A program made the translations under genes and the position numbers. Source: Halorientalis regularis (GTDB lineage Archaea > Halobacteriota > Halobacteria > Halobacteriales > Haloarculaceae). Taken from it: a DNA stretch of 64,000 nt. Below are positions 45,292 to 64,000 of the stretch, piece after piece. The notes beneath the pieces were generated by a model. It did not search any database. It was not told the origin of the DNA and was given only the letters and a program-made list of their open reading frames with translations. Each line of letters starts with the position of its first letter. Position 1 is the first letter of the stretch. The DNA is taken from assembly GCF_023698535.1 (NCBI RefSeq), contig NZ_JALJCL010000003.1, positions 248,001-312,000 of the forward strand. The letters are read 5' to 3'.

Positions 45292-46014
45292 CTACTCGAC
45301 CGCGGCCATCGCGTCTTCGAGCGTGAACTGCCCCTCGTAGAGGGCGCTCCCGACGACGACGGCGCTCGCGCCGGCCGCCTGCAGGTCGCGCACGTCGTCG
45401 ATGGTGGCGACGCCGCCGCTGGCGATCACGGGGATGTCGACGGCCTCGACGACCCGGCGGACGGGGTCGGTCCGCACTCCTTCTAGCTGGCCCTCCACGT
45501 CCACGTCGGTAAAGAGGATCGCCCCCGCGCCGCGGTCCTCGTACCGGGTCGCGGCCTCGGCCGGGTCGAGGCCGGTGCCTTCGGTCCAGCCCGAGACGAC
45601 GACCTCGCCGTCCTTGGCGTCGAGACTGACCGTCACGCTTCCGGGATGGGCCTCGCTGATCTCCGCGACGATCTCGGGTGTCTCGACGGCGGCGGTGCCG
45701 AGGATGACGCGGTCGACGCCCCGGTCCAGCAGATCGGTGGCGTCGGCGACGGTGCGGATGCCACCGCCCAGTTGTACGTCCACGTCGACCTCGTCGAGGA
45801 TGGCGTCGACGGCGGGGGCGTTCTCGCGCTCGCCCTCGAACGCGCCGTCGAGGTCGACGAGGTGGAGGGTGCGTGCGCCGGCCTCGACCCAGCGGCGGGC
45901 GGCCTCGACGGGATCGCCGTACTCCGTGCCGGTGCCGCGCTCGCCGCCGACGAGCTGGACGACCTGCCCGTCCTGCATGTCCACGGCGGGGACGACCTCG
46001 AACTCGGGAAACAT
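45292..46014 (-). CDS. hisA: ProFAR isomerase HisA
   Basis: A 240-residue (beta/alpha)8 enzyme of histidine synthesis. It has the N-terminal catalytic Asp in VVPAVDMQDGQVV, LHLVDLDGAFEG, VQLGGGIRT with the phosphate loop, and the second catalytic Asp in FTDVDVEGQLEG, then VIASGGVATIDDV and VVVGSALYEG. The half-barrel phosphate motifs are intact. It is divergent from the PiT gene, 129 bases apart. Confidence 0.96.
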   Translation of the reverse strand: MFPEFEVVPAVDMQDGQVVQLVGGERGTGTEYGDPVEAARRWVEAGARTLHLVDLDGAFEGERENAPAVDAILDEVDVDVQLGGGIRTVADATDLLDRGVDRVILGTAAVETPEIVAEISEAHPGSVTVSLDAKDGEVVVSGWTEGTGLDPAEAATRYEDRGAGAILFTDVDVEGQLEGVRTDPVRRVVEAVDIPVIASGGVATIDDVRDLQAAGASAVVVGSALYEGQFTLEDAMAAVE

Positions 46015-47427: not shown

Positions 47428-47817
47428 ATGCCCACGGTAGAGTACCTTAATTACGAAGTACTGGACGATCACGGTTGGGACATGTACGACAACGAGACGT
47501 TCGACAAGGCCGCAGACGCCGACCTCGACGACGAGGACTACGGCACTCTGGAGGTCAACGAGGGTGAGTACATCCTCGAGGCCGCCGAATCCCAGGGCTA
47601 CGACTGGCCGTTCTCCTGTCGCGCCGGCGCGTGTGCGAACTGCGCCGCCATCGTCGTCGAAGGCGAGATCGACATGGACATGCAGCAGATCCTCTCAGAC
47701 GAGGAGGTCGAAGACAAGAACGTCCGTCTGACCTGTATCGGCAGCCCCGACGCCGACGAGGTCCGGATCGTCTACAACGCGAAGCACCTCGACTACCTGC
47801 AGAACCGCGTCATCTAA
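47428..47817 (+). CDS. fdx: Halophilic 2Fe-2S ferredoxin
   Basis: A 129-residue plant-type ferredoxin with the halophile-specific acidic insert near the N terminus (residues about 10-45, rich in Asp and Glu). Cluster ligands are in [16 protein letters not shown] (Cx4Cx2C) and RLTCIGSPD. It is the electron acceptor of 2-oxoacid oxidoreductases in haloarchaea. The gene's last three codons and stop (from 47808) form the beginning of direct repeat A, so an element's edge coincides with its 3' end. It is the last recognisable core gene before the island. Confidence 0.96.
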
Positions 47818-47985
47818 ACCTGCAGCGTACCCACAATGTGGGTACACATTCTTGAGTGAACGACCGTGGAAACAGTTAGTAGTGGAAATACTACGCGGTA
47901 GAAGCCCTCTATCGGGTTTTCCATCATGTGTTGAGTTGCCCCCAGATGCTCCTGTAGGCCCAAGGTTGGTAGACAGGGCAAAGGA
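47808..47985 (+). repeat. Direct repeat A, left border of a 2.9-kb module
   Basis: It aligns without gaps to 50732-50910 over about 178 bases at roughly 85-90 percent identity, estimated by eye. The central part, about 47860-47921, is identical in both. The conserved core contains a small hairpin gtagt/actac and an aagccc...gggtttt stem followed by a T run. This recalls the right ends of haloarchaeal IS1341-type (TnpB-only IS605) elements, from memory and not searched. The repeat starts inside the last codons of fdx. Confidence 0.8.
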
Positions 47986-50575: not shown

Positions 50576-50731
50576 CCCCCGGCAGAGATTGTCTCTGATG
50601 TGATGTTCTTATTGTTAGATCATCGGTGTTCGGTTAAGCACTGGATCGCCTCGTGAAGGCTTCAACCACTCGTTCGGGCAGTAGTTGGCGGGATCGCTCT
50701 GGTTGTCGAGCTTCACGGAACAACAACTCCA

Positions 50732-50910
50732 CGTCATCTAAACCTGCAGCGTGCCCACATTGTGGGTACACATTCTTGAAGGAGCGACCGTGGAAACAGT
50801 TAGTAGTGGAAATACTACGCGGTAGAAGCCCTCTATCGGGTTTTCCACCATGTGCTAAATTGCCCCCAGATACTTCTGCGGGCCCAATGTTGATAGACTG
50901 GACAAAAAGG
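50732..50910 (+). repeat. Direct repeat B, right border of a 2.9-kb module
   Basis: This is the second copy of the repeat at 47808-47985, in the same orientation. It shares the fdx 3' end sequence gtcatctaaacctgcagcg but is preceded by unrelated, gene-fragment-like sequence (50640-50731). Differences are scattered single bases without gaps, so the duplication is old or the copies came from different relatives of one element. Confidence 0.8.
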
Positions 50911-50984
50911 TCTTTCCACGCTTGGACTTGTAATAAATACGGCGTTTCGAGTATAATAAGATATAACAGCGAGCATATAAAGGT

Positions 50985-51300
50985 GGTGTCCGGAGAGGTG
51001 ATCACGGGGACGTGGCGTCAAACCCACAGTCTAGCCCCTAGCCGTGAAAATGGCCGCAAGGTAAGGGGCGGAGCCTCTCCTACGAACACCCTATGAGGTG
51101 TTCACTGCGAGAGATCCCTCGCGAAAAGGCCACAACAAGTTCACATGGGCTTGTTGGGTGCGGTTGGATGGCCACTCGCGAAGCGGACCCCTGACTGATC
51201 ACCAGTGGTCGCAGCAGGCGGGTGGGCCCTTCTCCGTGAGGAGAAGTGCGCTCCGGTATAGCCTTCGGGCAAAATACCGGGTCGTTCGTCCAGCCGATTT
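50985..51300 (+). ncRNA. Candidate structured RNA, unknown class
   Basis: About 300 bases with no convincing ORF but many perfect stems: 51084-51090/51097-51103; 51107-51111/51118-51122; 51128-51132/51169-51173 enclosing 51133-51139/51150-51156; 51229-51235/51240-51246 closed by a GUGA tetraloop; and 51253-51259/51274-51280 enclosing a C(UUCG)G hairpin (261-270). Longer-range pairs include 51034-51039/51064-51069 and 50997-51004/51196-51203. TATA-like boxes lie at 50958-50967 and 50975-50980. It matches none of RNase P RNA, 7S RNA or rRNA as I know them. It is followed by a nuclease-like gene on the same strand. Confidence 0.6.
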
Positions 51301-51386
51301 TGAATGCATCTGACTAAGCTGGGAGATATAGTTATCCTACAGATCGATCACCGGTAGAATCTCTGTGCCAGAACTATGCGAGGTAC

Positions 51387-51392
51387 TTTATA
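51387..51392 (+). promoter_or_regulatory. TATA box of the nuclease-like gene
   Basis: The sequence tttata is centred about 25 bases before ATG 51415, giving a leaderless start there. This argues against the upstream in-frame ATG at 51376. Confidence 0.65.
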
Positions 51393-51414
51393 CCGAGGAG
51401 TCGCGCATGTTGAC

Positions 51415-52626
51415 ATGAAGACGAGATTTATCAAGACAACGAGCGGAGTCGATATTTGCGAAGGTGCAGCATGGTACGCATACCGCGAGCGTCTGGGACT
51501 CAGCCACTACAATGAGTTCCCAATCGCTACCGACTTAGATGCATTCAGCGAGGGTTCGCAGGCCCGAGAAACCCTCAAGAAATTCAGTGAGTATCTCGAT
51601 GAGGGCGTCATCGCGATGGTTAGAAACCAGAGCCCTGACCTGCTGATGGGGGGATTCCTCATCTCTTCAATTGGCGATGTACCCGGCGCTCAGTCACCAG
51701 AACACGGCTTCAGGTTCATCATTTGTCGCTCAGGAGAGTGGGAGTGTAACTGTGAGGGTAGTTGCACAGATGGGTGCGGCGTCATCGCAGACTTCCCGGT
51801 CTCTCGGAGTGCTAGCCCGGAAGACATCGTTACAAGAGCGAATGCTGAGAGCGAGATTGCTGCCTCGATTTTAGAATCTGCACTGAGGCTCCGTCAACAA
51901 GGGGATAGCGCTTCGGAAACTGTCAAAACATCCGATGGCGAAGAAATAACCTTCGAGTACGACAGCGAGGAGGACAGGTTGCGTGGTGTGAGTTTTCTTC
52001 AGGCAGTCACACTCAATCCATCGGACACACAGTGGTGGTCGTATCAGACGTTCCCCTACTGGTCGAGTACTCCGCATCAGGGGACGACAGGAAACGTCAA
52101 GAACGCCGGTCGCAAGCAGTTGCTCGCGGCCTACCACAACTACGATAACCGGCTTGAAACACTGGAAGAGGAGGACACGACCGACCCGACAGCTGTTGAC
52201 GGCGCTGAGGCCATCGATGTACTGGGAACAGATCAGGTGGAAACGCTCTGTACGGAGTATCTCAGGACACACGAGTACGAAGGGTACCAGCACGTATTTC
52301 CGACCGGAGGCGATCTGCAAGCGGCGGATACGCTGGCACGGACTGCTAACGGCACCCGCGTCGCAACTCAGGTGACGATGGAAGGTGGCAAGGCCTCAAA
52401 ATTCCGGAAGTTGGCCAGTTTCGCAGCAGAGCAGGACGACTCTGGTGCAGTTGATCTGTGGTACTTCGGCAAGGGTGTCGATGAAAGTGATGTTCCAGAA
52501 GATGTCGAAGTCAAAATTGAGGTTCGGTCCATCGGTGACGTGTTCGAGTCAATGACTGATTCTGTCTGCTTGAATGCGATGCTAGAAGTCCCTGATCCGC
52601 AGGGAGAACCGGCCACAATGGGATAG
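51415..52626 (+). CDS. Unknown protein with possible restriction-endonuclease-like domain
   Basis: A 403-residue soluble protein (MKTRFIKTTSGVDICEGAAW). Residues 1-145 include a Cys cluster (WECNCEGSCTDGCGV) that may bind metal. A linker of acidic sequence follows. Residues about 270-370 (VETLCTEYLRTHEYEGYQHV, then FPTGGDLQAADTLARTANGT and VATQVTMEGGKASKF) are laid out like an Mrr/PD-(D/E)xK nuclease. However, the usual Q-x-K third motif reads QVT, so activity is doubtful. It stands right behind the candidate structured RNA. Downstream, the +1 frame remains coding-like to about 52804. Start chosen by the TATA box. Confidence 0.6.
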   Translation: MKTRFIKTTSGVDICEGAAWYAYRERLGLSHYNEFPIATDLDAFSEGSQARETLKKFSEYLDEGVIAMVRNQSPDLLMGGFLISSIGDVPGAQSPEHGFRFIICRSGEWECNCEGSCTDGCGVIADFPVSRSASPEDIVTRANAESEIAASILESALRLRQQGDSASETVKTSDGEEITFEYDSEEDRLRGVSFLQAVTLNPSDTQWWSYQTFPYWSSTPHQGTTGNVKNAGRKQLLAAYHNYDNRLETLEEEDTTDPTAVDGAEAIDVLGTDQVETLCTEYLRTHEYEGYQHVFPTGGDLQAADTLARTANGTRVATQVTMEGGKASKFRKLASFAAEQDDSGAVDLWYFGKGVDESDVPEDVEVKIEVRSIGDVFESMTDSVCLNAMLEVPDPQGEPATMG

Positions 52627-54476: not shown

Positions 54477-56753
54477 TCATTTACTATTACAGGTATGATT
54501 GATGACTGGAATATTCTGGATGCTGTCCACCGGCTCCTGATGGCGAGAGTATTCATCCCACGTATCGTACCCACCCGGAGGAAGTAATTCATCTCTTTCG
54601 GCGATCTCGGCAATAAGTCTCGGTTCACGCAACAGCTCTACAGGATCAACCAGCTTGATACAGAAGGGGAGGATTCTATTCCAACCATTGAGTTGACGTT
54701 TGACCCGCCCTGATACATCGTCTTCGAAGGCAATGATCACGATTTGTTGGATCGTACACTGCGGCCGTTGCTCCGCGATTTCTGCAGCATAGTCCGTTAC
54801 CCGACTAAGCTTATTGAGATCAAGGCTAAGACTTGGATCACCGAAGACGATGTCACCACTCTCCCCGTGTTCACCGATTACATCAATATCTCCAACTGCG
54901 ATGCGTAGCTCAATATCGGTGTTGTAGCCGTTCTGTCGAAGGACGTCTTCGAATCGATTCTTCAATTCCTGATGCAATTCGCTTTCTCCTCCGACATCCG
55001 CACCCCAGAGTTCATCTTCACGTAGAAGATCCCATGGGGTTCTGGAGCTTATCATCTCACTAAGTCGCTCTATGAAGGAGGAATGGACGTCGATGTCATC
55101 CTTATTCGTCGTGAGGGGGAGGTCTGCGTCAGGGTCCAAGGAAAGCGTATTGACGTACCCTTTGATGTGGTTGTCTCGGTTGTGTACCTTATTCCCCGAG
55201 AAGTCGGGAATTGTCTGCTGACGTACCTGCCGGCCATTCACGTAGTATCGGATGTCTGCATCCATGATACTATTATCTGCAACAGTTCTGAATCCGGGAT
55301 TTTGACCCGTTTCGTTCTGTCTTAGCGGAGTTCCGTTCGGGTATCGATCAGCTCGATAGTATTGGATTGTGTGCGACTCATCCCAACGGCTAATCTGCAG
55401 GTCAGTCAGCAGGTAGTCCACAGAATCATGAGTGAATTCGCTGTTGTTCGCAGTAATTGGGAAGGTCCACTTGTTTCGTTTCTGAGGACTATCGCTATCG
55501 TCTCGGTACTCATTCCCACGCAGTTTCGGGAGTAACGGGATGATTGCATCCCAGACCTGAGTTGCCTGCTCAGCCTGCGTGCCCATGTCTGTTGCTTCCG
55601 AAGAATTGCTACTCTGCTCGTAGCACTTGTCCCGGTAGCTATAGTAGATGGTCAAAGGCATTCTATCAATGATTTCAACCGGATCGGCGTCCAGATCAGT
55701 GTCATTAGGGATGGCATCATTGCCATTGGCCATCTTCAGCAGCATCGCATAGACAACGCTAATTTGTTCTCTCAGGGCTTGAGCGTAGGTCCAGAGTAGT
55801 TCATTCGAGTTCTGATACCCCTCCTTCCAAACATCTTTCCGGAATCGATTGTACGGGCACTCCAGTCGGACACGAGTCCCAGATTCTCCGAGGTCCATCT
55901 GCCCATCCCAATCGTACCAACGGTCGTTCGACACAACCCGAGGATGTTTAGATTCTGAGAGCGGGCCATCAACCAGATAGACCGGATCATCTTGACCGGT
56001 TGTAGTGAGGATCTGGAAGGAACTCTGAGCCGGTTCGATCCCTTCGTCCCTGAGAACCCACTCGAAGAATGCTATGGAAGCCTTGAGCCCAACGCCAAAT
56101 TCATTATACAGACCGTCTCCTGCGCTGATACCGGGTCCGAACAACTTCAAGAACAGAGTGGCTGGGCCGATTCCCGGCCCTCGATCGGCTATTTCAATGA
56201 AGACTCGGTCTCCATCCTCATCTCGAACCAGTCTAAGTTCGACAGTCGCTTCTTCGTCGATTTTGCCACGAGATGTCTCGAAAGATTCGACCGAGAGTTG
56301 CGAACTGATCGCGTTTTCGAGGACGTCATAGATGCCGCCCTGAGTCTTCTTAATAAGGCTGCCAAGCGCATCTACCATCCGGGTGAGAGACGTCGTTTCA
56401 TTCACTGCCCAATCCAATTGTATCTCTTCGCCCGGTTCAATTGCGCCGCTGTCAAAATCCTCGGATTTAACGAGGTCTTCAACCTCGAAGTCTTCGGGGT
56501 CAACGCTTGCTTCGCCGACGCCAAGCAGATCAACAGCGATGTCCTCGACGGAAACTCCAAATTCAAACTGACGGTTCAGGTCTTCGACAAACTCTGGGAG
56601 TTGTCCATGGAGGCGTTTAGCTAATTCTTTTTCCAAGACTTCCCGATCTTCGTCGTCTAACTCTTTATCTACTCGAAGGGGGACGTCTACCTCTGTTGTA
56701 TCCTCAGAGGCTCCACCACTTCTTTCGGGATGGTTTTCGTCTTTTGAGAGCAT
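54477..56753 (-). CDS. GHKL ATPase with possible C-terminal nuclease domain
   Basis: A 758-residue protein. Residues about 120-260 form a GHKL (Hsp90/MutL/MORC-type) ATP-binding fold: N box IYDVLENAISSQ (141-152), the DxGxG motif IADRGPGIGPATL (188-200), then a lid GPGISAGDGLYNEF and GVGLKASIAF (220-229). A long middle domain follows. Residues about 590-700 (ESELHQELKNRFEDVLRQNG, then LRIAVGDIDVIGEHGESGDI) resemble a PD-(D/E)xK nuclease core. Fusion of a GHKL ATPase with a nuclease is seen in MutL and in predicted anti-phage proteins. A TATA box is 27 bases upstream, so it is leaderless and single. Function in defence is an inference. Confidence 0.75.
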   Translation of the reverse strand: MLSKDENHPERSGGASEDTTEVDVPLRVDKELDDEDREVLEKELAKRLHGQLPEFVEDLNRQFEFGVSVEDIAVDLLGVGEASVDPEDFEVEDLVKSEDFDSGAIEPGEEIQLDWAVNETTSLTRMVDALGSLIKKTQGGIYDVLENAISSQLSVESFETSRGKIDEEATVELRLVRDEDGDRVFIEIADRGPGIGPATLFLKLFGPGISAGDGLYNEFGVGLKASIAFFEWVLRDEGIEPAQSSFQILTTTGQDDPVYLVDGPLSESKHPRVVSNDRWYDWDGQMDLGESGTRVRLECPYNRFRKDVWKEGYQNSNELLWTYAQALREQISVVYAMLLKMANGNDAIPNDTDLDADPVEIIDRMPLTIYYSYRDKCYEQSSNSSEATDMGTQAEQATQVWDAIIPLLPKLRGNEYRDDSDSPQKRNKWTFPITANNSEFTHDSVDYLLTDLQISRWDESHTIQYYRADRYPNGTPLRQNETGQNPGFRTVADNSIMDADIRYYVNGRQVRQQTIPDFSGNKVHNRDNHIKGYVNTLSLDPDADLPLTTNKDDIDVHSSFIERLSEMISSRTPWDLLREDELWGADVGGESELHQELKNRFEDVLRQNGYNTDIELRIAVGDIDVIGEHGESGDIVFGDPSLSLDLNKLSRVTDYAAEIAEQRPQCTIQQIVIIAFEDDVSGRVKRQLNGWNRILPFCIKLVDPVELLREPRLIAEIAERDELLPPGGYDTWDEYSRHQEPVDSIQNIPVINHTCNSK

Positions 56754-61406: not shown

Positions 61407-61544
61407 ATGACTATCCAGAGGCTCACATCAGTTGGCAACGCCGACTGGGATTCTATACAAAATGGTCAACAGAGGCCTCAGTCAAACATTGTCACTATGC
61501 GGGCCGAGCCGCCAACAGCTCCTTCCTCTTCAATTGACGAATGA
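61407..61544 (+). CDS. 45-residue leader ORF coupled to drmD
   Basis: The ORF reads MTIQRLTSVGNADWDSIQNG, then QQRPQSNIVTMRAEPPTAPS, and ends SSIDE. It is polar and probably disordered. It begins at the predicted transcript start, and its stop overlaps the drmD ATG by 4 bases (atga), so ribosomes reading it would be delivered to drmD. It may be a regulatory leader peptide or a small DISARM-associated protein. Nothing similar is known to me. Confidence 0.5.
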   Translation: MTIQRLTSVGNADWDSIQNGQQRPQSNIVTMRAEPPTAPSSSIDE

Positions 61545-64000
61545 GTTCACAACTCCCCTCAAATATCCAACCCGGGTCTGTCGTAGAAAACCGGAATCGT
61601 CTATGGAGAGTTGACGCTGTAAATGGTAGCGTTGTTACGGCTACTCCTTTAGACGGAAACACCGGCGATAGGCATCGATTCTATGTGCCGGTCGAGAACA
61701 TCGAGGAAGGAAGGCTGGAACCACCGGATTCAGAGAAAATCGGCAACCCAGAATTTCAGCGTCTTCTGAATCGAGCTTACCGTCTCTCGATGCTACACGG
61801 GACAGCCCCACTTGTGAGTCTCCAGCGATCAAGGGTGATCCCGACTGAATACCAGCTTACTCCAGTTGTGATGGCTCTGGATATGCCCCGTGTCCGGATG
61901 CTACTGGCGGATGACGTCGGTCTTGGGAAAACTATCGAGGCGGGGCTCATCACCAGCGAGCTTATGGCTCGCAACAAAGCGGATCGAATTCTCATCATCA
62001 CGCCTGCGAATCTTCGGGAACAATGGCGGGAGGCGTTCAATTATTTCTTCCACATTGATGCGGACATCATCAGCCGACGCCACCGGAAGGCGATGGAGAA
62101 GGAGATTCCACCGGGAACCAGTCCGTGGGAACACTTCTCGAAGCTAATCGTCAGCATCGACTATGCCAAGCAAAACAGCGTTCGGCACGAAATTCTCGAT
62201 CAAGACTGGGATCTCGTGATCATTGACGAGGCACATCAAGCGGCGAAGCCTCACGAATCTGGGGCAAACGAAACGGTTGATATGCAACGTTGGGATTTTG
62301 CTACCGAAATCACCGACCACGCAGAACACTGTCTCCTCTTGACGGCCACGCCGCACAACGGTTACACTGATTCCTTCGCCAGTCTGATCCGAATGCTTGA
62401 CGTCGACGCTGTCTCCGGGCCTCGACACGACCCCACGATTCATCGAGAAGTCGCTCGAAAGCACGTCGTTCAACGCCGGAGAGATGACGTCAAACAATGG
62501 TTCTCCGATAGTGACGGGAAAAGTCCCTTCCCAGAACGTGACCAAGACGAGGTTCGGGTCACACCGACGAAGTACGAACAAGAGACGTACGACGCCGTCA
62601 GAGAGTATGGTGAACTGCTGATGTCGTCCGCCCAGCGTTCCAGTTCTAAGAGCCAAACGCTGGCACGCTGGTCCGTTATCCACTTCCTCAAGCGAGCGCT
62701 GAGCAGTCCAGAGGCACTCCGACAATCACTGAAGAATCGTCAAGACAAGCTCGAAGGCCGGTTGGATGATCTCGACGAGGAAGATACACAGACTGTAATC
62801 GAGGAGACTGCCGGGATTTCTGAATCGATGGCACAGGCAAATGCACTCGACGACGATCCCGGAGAGGAGTATAGCGAGGAGGAAGTCGGAGAGCGAGTTG
62901 AACGGGTTGTCACCGGTGACAAGGCCGCTATCGAACAAGAGCTGGAAGTCCTCGAAGGCGTCGCAGAGAAGGCGGAAAAGGTCACTAAAACCCGTGACGC
63001 AAAGCTACAGCAACTCCTCGACGAAACCCTTCCCAATCGGTTCCAGTACCCCCGTGTCATCATCTTCACAAAGTACGTGGACACGCTGGAGTACCTCGAA
63101 GAGCAGATCAAGGACTCGCAGAGCGACGAGACCGATGTCTTCACCCTTCACGGGTCTCTTAACGAAGCCCAGCGGAAAGAGCGCTTCAAGGAGTTTGAGG
63201 ACTCCACACGGGGCGTCCTCATCGCTACCGACGTCATCAGCGAGGGGATGAATCTCCAGCACGCCGCAAACCAGATCATTCACTACGAGCTGCCGTGGAA
63301 CCCGAACCGGCTGGAACAACGGAATGGTCGAATCGACCGGTACGGACAGAAGAACGACGAGGTCGTCATCCGGACGATGGTCGTCGAGGACCAAATGGAC
63401 GTCGCCATCCTCGAAAAGCTGGTTCAGAAAGCGAACAACATTAGACAGGAGTACGGGTTCTCACCGCCGTACTTCGGTGACGACGAGGGGATCCTCGAAC
63501 TCCTCAAAGACGAAGGGATCGACGCCGGGGTTCCACAGGCGACACTCGAAGAGTTCGGAGGAGGTACCACACCATCTGAGCGAGACAGTGCAAGCGTCTT
63601 CGACGACGAGACGCTCGACCGAATCAAGTCAGAGTCCTTCTACGGTCACACCGAAGTCGGGCTACAAGAGGTGCAAAAGCGCAAAGAAGAGACGCACCAG
63701 CGGATTGGCGGGCAGGGCAGCTTGGAGCAGTTCGTAAAGAGTGCCCTGAACCTGTTCAGCTGTTCGTATGACATGAACGTCCAAGGGCACCTCGACATAG
63801 AGGTCACCGCTGATCGGCTTCAAGGGCCGGACATCGAGCGAGAGTACGAGGATGTGACGTTCGACCCGAACGAGGCATCCCAGTCCTCCGATACGGAGAT
63901 GCTCGACATCGCTCACCCACTCGTGCAGCGGCTTATCGAAGCAGTCAAGGAAACTGCATTAACCGACGAGGAACGGTACGGGCGGACGGCCATACGGGGA
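61541..64000 (+). CDS. drmD: DISARM system SNF2-like helicase DrmD (3' end outside window)
   Basis: 820 codons without a stop run to the window end. An in-frame stop at 61535 forces the ATG at 61541. The SNF2/DEAD helicase motifs are in order: Q-like IPTEYQLTPVVMAL, Walker A LLADDVGLGKTIEAGLI (about residues 121-137), Ia LIITPANLREQW, II VIIDEAHQAAK (about 228), III LLLTATPHNGY, IV VIIFTKYVDTLEYL, V VLIATDVISEGMNLQHA, VI NRLEQRNGRIDRYGQ. The N-terminal 100 residues (GSVVENRNRLWRVDAVNGSV) match DrmD rather than generic SNF2 or RapA. In class 1 DISARM it acts with an adenine methylase, DrmA, DrmB and DrmC against incoming phage DNA. Those partners would lie downstream. Confidence 0.85.
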   Translation, partial: MSSQLPSNIQPGSVVENRNRLWRVDAVNGSVVTATPLDGNTGDRHRFYVPVENIEEGRLEPPDSEKIGNPEFQRLLNRAYRLSMLHGTAPLVSLQRSRVIPTEYQLTPVVMALDMPRVRMLLADDVGLGKTIEAGLITSELMARNKADRILIITPANLREQWREAFNYFFHIDADIISRRHRKAMEKEIPPGTSPWEHFSKLIVSIDYAKQNSVRHEILDQDWDLVIIDEAHQAAKPHESGANETVDMQRWDFATEITDHAEHCLLLTATPHNGYTDSFASLIRMLDVDAVSGPRHDPTIHREVARKHVVQRRRDDVKQWFSDSDGKSPFPERDQDEVRVTPTKYEQETYDAVREYGELLMSSAQRSSSKSQTLARWSVIHFLKRALSSPEALRQSLKNRQDKLEGRLDDLDEEDTQTVIEETAGISESMAQANALDDDPGEEYSEEEVGERVERVVTGDKAAIEQELEVLEGVAEKAEKVTKTRDAKLQQLLDETLPNRFQYPRVIIFTKYVDTLEYLEEQIKDSQSDETDVFTLHGSLNEAQRKERFKEFEDSTRGVLIATDVISEGMNLQHAANQIIHYELPWNPNRLEQRNGRIDRYGQKNDEVVIRTMVVEDQMDVAILEKLVQKANNIRQEYGFSPPYFGDDEGILELLKDEGIDAGVPQATLEEFGGGTTPSERDSASVFDDETLDRIKSESFYGHTEVGLQEVQKRKEETHQRIGGQGSLEQFVKSALNLFSCSYDMNVQGHLDIEVTADRLQGPDIEREYEDVTFDPNEASQSSDTEMLDIAHPLVQRLIEAVKETALTDEERYGRTAIRG

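Follow-up and report, generated by a model that had tools for sequence, protein, structure and literature searches.

A structured non-coding RNA in Halorientalis regularis and its rare relatives on plasmids and accessory regions of haloarchaea

In a 64,000-nt stretch of the Halorientalis regularis genome (referred to as the window), we found a locus on the plus strand that is best explained as the gene of a non-coding RNA of ~310 nt that stands alone and acts in trans, belonging to a new and rare haloarchaeal family on plasmids or in accessory regions. We favour this explanation, with some reserve, because it is the best fit to all sites at which the RNA occurs. Judged by conserved sequence and pairing, the window RNA and its homologues constitute a new RNA family.

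The RNA probably extends from ~50990 to ~51300, its 5' end being placed by the position of TATA-like boxes and by the predicted helices (Table 1). On the plus strand, 50,990-51,300 folds with a minimum free energy of -147.9 kcal/mol (z -5.16; none of 100 shuffles was as good), compared with z -2.64 for the minus strand. In the predicted anatomy, a variable 5' domain is followed by two to three hairpins, and these by a conserved 3' domain of ~135 nt forming a four-way junction. At least seven stems, long-range complementary blocks, a C-GUGA-G tetraloop (51236-51239) and a C(UUCG)G tetraloop (51263-51268) had been pointed out in an earlier sequence-only reading and are all present, as are the TATA boxes that it had noted just upstream. 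The region carrying these boxes aligns nearly gap-free with an AT-rich stretch upstream of the Halalkalicoccus copies described below, and we infer that it is the active promoter of the RNA. Matches to "-35/-10" elements were given no weight, since this promoter type is bacterial and the RNA archaeal.

Table 1. Predicted features of the RNA locus and its immediate surroundings (window coordinates)
Feature	Position	Strand	Observations
Direct repeat B, one copy	50729-50906		upstream of the RNA and outside it; other copy at 47805-47982
Putative promoter region with TATA-like boxes	50950-50985	+	from sequence: TATAAT at 50952-50957, GATATAAC at about 50960-50966, CATATAAAG at about 50975 (box 50976-50981); all upstream of the RNA
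Structured non-coding RNA gene, approximate transcript	50990-51300	+	fold z, homologues, covariation; ends predicted
5' domain	50992-51080	+	closing helix GGAGAGG (50992-50998) / CCUCUCC (51074-51080)
Hairpin GAACACC/GGUGUUC	51084-51103	+	fold; helix not conserved in Halalkalicoccus
Helix 3, hairpin GCGAG-AGAUCC-CUCGC	51107-51122	+	both-sided changes in 3 pairs
Helix 4, hairpin GCC.ACAACAAG/CUUGUUGGGU	51129-51160	+	both-sided changes in 4 pairs
Conserved 3' domain, four-way junction	51161-51296	+	closed by helix 5 (51161-51171 with about 51285-51296); helix 5: 95.5% of cells paired, covariation in 3 pairs
Long arm, helices 6 and 7	51172-51225	+	both-sided changes in 5 pairs of helix 7; invariant GAA/AG internal loop (51180-51182 / 51216-51217); invariant AUC in terminal loop
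Helix 8, hairpin CUUCUCC-GUGA-GGAGAAG	51229-51246	+	100% of cells paired, covariation in 3 pairs; loop is GAAA in G368, larger in Halalkalicoccus
Helices 9 and 10, hairpin	51250-51283	+	conserved AUAG/AAA(U) internal loop, UUCG loop; helix 9: 95.7% of cells paired
416-aa ORF, nuclease-like by eye	51376-52626	+	no Pfam or PADLOC match

A blastn search of haloarchaeal genomes, as the sequence-only reading had suggested, did uncover homologues. Two Halalkalicoccus jeotgali B3 plasmids (NC_014299 and NC_014301, plasmids 2 and 4) contain stretches of 76% identity, in intergenic positions where no gene is annotated; the two copies are identical, and so are the 8-kb stretches surrounding them. A further copy resides in G094, a second genome placed in Halalkalicoccus. 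The alignment with the Halalkalicoccus copies runs on, at lower identity, to the predicted 3' end of the RNA. Towards the 5' end, the window sequence is largely lineage-specific: the Halalkalicoccus 5' domain is built differently, and its interior does not align with that of the window domain, although both admit a closing helix (GUGGAGGG/CCCUCCGC in Halalkalicoccus). A first covariance model, made from the window, H. jeotgali and G094 sequences only, was used to search 392 genomes from the order and revealed one new member (E 1e-18) in a genome of another family, G368. Covariance-model E values of the homologues ranged from 1e-18 to 1e-93. The G368 copy, in which no 5' domain can be recognised and which directly adjoins the beginning of a divergent gene, may thus be decayed; it is located on a 1.5-Mb contig in which no mobile gene was identified.

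In total, the RNA was present in four of the 392 genomes sampled from the order. A second model, now including G368, yielded no further member in the families of G368 (171 genomes), Halalkalicoccus (10 genomes) and the window (146 genomes), nor across the class (392 genomes) or in two other families. Hence, as far as these sequence searches reach, the family is rare and patchy, its members being located on plasmids or within a genomic island; the search scored only a few candidates per genome, which has to be kept in mind. Two weak model matches (L067 and L068) were discarded as they are situated within protein genes. Pattern-scan candidates from genome contigs and viral contigs were rejected by the covariance model or matched it only in the pattern-selected stretch; the genome-contig scans also missed H. 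jeotgali, and the collection may simply lack members. Phage records gave no match to the RNA.

The covariation alignment comprised four sequences (window, H. jeotgali, G094 and G368) fitted to the model. Standard pairs filled 91.1% of the pair cells, compared with 83.8% in shuffles, and 25 pairs had changed on both sides with pairing kept, compared with 11.0 +/- 2.5 in the shuffled control; sliding the partner by 1-3 columns left 39-49% standard pairs and 2-7 both-sided pairs. Compensatory changes therefore exceed both controls, although some may represent single events, as the sample amounts to just three independent lineages once the two Halalkalicoccus rows, 96% alike, are taken as one. Since this alignment had been fitted to the model, the 3' domain was also aligned by MAFFT without constraint and folded with RNAalifold, which gave essentially the same helices with a weak covariation term, owing to partial misalignment of G368.

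Among variable pairs, G-U outnumbered A-C by 43 to 6 (28:4 and 15:2), from which we conclude that the molecule is an RNA read from the plus strand. By this sequence criterion, pairing is kept at the RNA level on that strand, and neither in DNA nor on the opposite strand. This bears on the idea that the locus is a structured DNA element of a plasmid, such as an oriT, a single-strand origin or a resolution site, for which the position of the H. jeotgali copies within a transfer-gene cluster would speak; with 43 G-U against 6 A-C cells pointing to RNA-level pairing on one strand, we consider it very unlikely.

Stability was not relied upon, because that of the 3' domain alone is unexceptional in some homologues: its z ranged from -1.0 to -4.5, with G368 at -1.0 (no better than shuffles) and one Halalkalicoccus domain at -1.3. 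The case for structure rests on covariation, not on energy. Two unpaired loops are invariant or nearly so, GAA/AG in the long arm and AUAG/AAA in the last hairpin, and these are the most promising sites for functional contacts. We do not claim a pseudoknot in which GGUGAU (50997-51002) would pair with AUCACC of the helix-7 loop: the window pseudoknot has 8 bp and was matched by 9 of 1000 shuffles, and support was absent in the other lineages (253 of 1000 shuffles for Halalkalicoccus and 404 of 1000 for G368; G094 was left out of the count).

The locus is non-coding as judged by comparison of the copies, and reading frames are not conserved. The Halalkalicoccus copies contain stops in every frame and gaps of 1, 2 and 11 nt, and substitutions between copies show no codon periodicity, which bears out the earlier statement that no plausible protein is encoded.

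Covariance models of Rfam 15 gave no match to the window RNA at gathering score. With permissive filters and a 601-base query, 4227 Rfam models produced at E<=10 only a chance lncRNA match, located upstream of the RNA. RNase P RNA and archaeal SRP RNA models did not match, Rfam was likewise silent at the H. jeotgali plasmid 4, G094 and G368 loci, and ARAGORN detected neither tRNA nor tmRNA in the window. The earlier assertion that the RNA is neither RNase P RNA nor 7S RNA thus holds even at E<=10, and, with no known class assigned, its novelty stands; the literature we searched contained nothing describing it. That a divergent housekeeping RNA (RNase P, 7S/SRP) or another known class is concealed here, as its similar size might suggest, appears extremely improbable given the negative Rfam scan and the absence of the RNA from nearly all haloarchaea searched, unlike housekeeping RNAs. 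Elsewhere in the window, at 45951-46000 (+), Rfam reported a Guanidine-II (mini-ykkC) match of 36.6 bits (gathering 32). The two GGACGACC hairpins there are presumably Leu/Gly-Asp-Asp-Leu codons in a GC-rich open frame, and the match is probably a false positive.

The RNA is followed, about 75 nt downstream and in the same direction, by the 416-aa ORF, which had led to the proposal of a guide-like or regulatory RNA working with this protein. HEARO and the OMEGA RNAs of IscB/TnpB are structured RNAs, a few hundred nt long and located close to a nuclease-like ORF, and the window RNA resembles them in size and in this proximity. It differs in lacking an Rfam match, and the neighbouring protein has no RuvC/HNH or TnpB/IscB/Cas Pfam domain; no such gene is annotated at the homologous sites either. 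None of the ORFs near the Halalkalicoccus and G368 copies resembles the 416-aa protein. Conversely, relatives of the protein occur in two genomes (G021 and G027) where the RNA was not found, and a distant relative on Haloarcula taiwanensis plasmid pNYT1 is separated from the preceding gene by only about 90 nt, leaving no room for the RNA just upstream. A guide or co-factor role for this protein is thereby largely refuted and retains a very slim chance. What stood of the sequence-only reading is the unclassified, highly folded RNA gene, now supported by homologues, covariation, the correct strand and the absence of an Rfam family; what did not stand is the partnership with the adjacent protein. 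As the pNYT1 relative lies near an SNF2 helicase and a restriction-modification gene, the 416-aa protein is possibly an undescribed defence-island nuclease. Its weak PDB sequence matches (E 0.04 and above) were treated as chance, and its predicted structure (pLDDT 36) was unusable.

Neighbouring genes differ at each site (window, Halalkalicoccus and G368). The island that holds the window RNA has a G+C content of about 0.40-0.58, compared with 0.66-0.73 to the left; among its products are DrmD-like and DrmMI-like proteins, a DruE-like helicase and a protein that weakly matches HATPase_c. In the Halalkalicoccus plasmids, the RNA occupies a 1.5-kb gap of the transfer-gene cluster; it runs antisense to the genes on either side and is upstream of none. 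In G368, it is found between a gene for a signal-peptide protein and a methyltransferase fragment, both named by eye from their translations. As far as gene content tells, the RNA has no conserved neighbour, and since its homologues sit beside entirely different genes, it probably acts independently of its neighbour. A cis-regulatory 5' leader (riboswitch or thermometer) would agree with the same-direction gene that follows the RNA in the window. However, the next gene is convergent in Halalkalicoccus, the next same-strand ORF in G368 is unrelated and begins about 330 nt away, and no conserved placement before one gene family was seen at the three kinds of sites, which makes a leader very unlikely.

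The neighbourhoods of the window and Halalkalicoccus copies have in common a DrmD/DrmMI-like pair and a transporter of PiT-type look, the latter close to the RNA in the window and G094 only, in a different arrangement. It could be asked if the RNA is a component of the DISARM-like DrmD/DrmMI module, which is 6-14 kb away in both. Methyltransferases of this kind were matched in 32 of the 57 haloarchaeal genomes tested, which corresponds to background frequency, and a DrmMI-like gene was not found in G368; we therefore give this possibility hardly any credence. At 61538-64000 of the window and 420-11209 of L075, genes for a DrmD-like helicase and a DrmMI-like methyltransferase are followed by one for a DruE-like helicase of 1766 aa; among the few proteins scanned, none matched DrmB or DrmC. 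The protein with the weak HATPase_c match (758 aa, 54477-56753, minus strand) has a nuclease-like C-terminus by eye and no PADLOC family, and is a candidate defence protein. Direct repeat B, which had been noted beside the RNA, is indeed there; its two 178-nt copies, 90% identical, are the only ones in the genome, and neither 57 relatives nor PLSDB plasmids contain any. Enclosed between them is an orphan gene (602 aa) whose G+C content is lower (about 0.40).

As a trans-acting RNA, the molecule would be expressed from a TATA promoter of its own, folding into a compact particle. Its conserved four-way-junction domain, with the invariant GAA/AG loop, the conserved AUAG/AAA loop and a GNRA or larger loop on helix 8, would be the functional core docking to a common host or RNA partner, and the variable 5' domain would supply element-specific contacts. 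Such a division of labour would be the same as in the GOLLD-type ornate RNAs of mobile elements. The RNA would most likely serve the mobile DNA that carries it, in expression, maintenance or transfer, acting as RNA only or as a ribonucleoprotein scaffold rather than by base-pair guiding.

The closest analogy is with GOLLD and ROOL, large structured non-coding RNAs of mobile elements whose own functions are poorly understood; they measure about 600-800 nt and belong to bacterial phages (PMC12286853). Like them, the window RNA resides on mobile or accessory DNA without a conserved protein partner, and like GOLLD it combines a conserved 3' domain with a variable 5' domain, a resemblance in layout only and not homology. 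It differs in its length of about 310 nt, its location on archaeal plasmids or islands and the absence of a tRNA from the window, and no GOLLD or ROOL Rfam model matched. By analogy, it is conceivable, although we hold this only tentatively, that the family is an archaeal counterpart of the ornate RNAs, with a conserved 3' core and an exchangeable 5' domain, forming an RNA-only or ribonucleoprotein particle in the service of its element. The bacterial, structured Bacillus-plasmid and lactis-plasmid RNA motifs (PMC2864571) share the plasmid association; unlike these, the window RNA is archaeal and without an Rfam match.

The literature searched described no large structured RNA from haloarchaeal plasmids. 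To our knowledge, few large structured RNAs outside the housekeeping classes are known in haloarchaea. The secondary structure of the present RNA has been tested by evolution, its coordinates are defined and the cultured strain H. jeotgali B3 carries copies, so that its transcription, its partners and the phenotype of its deletion are directly testable.
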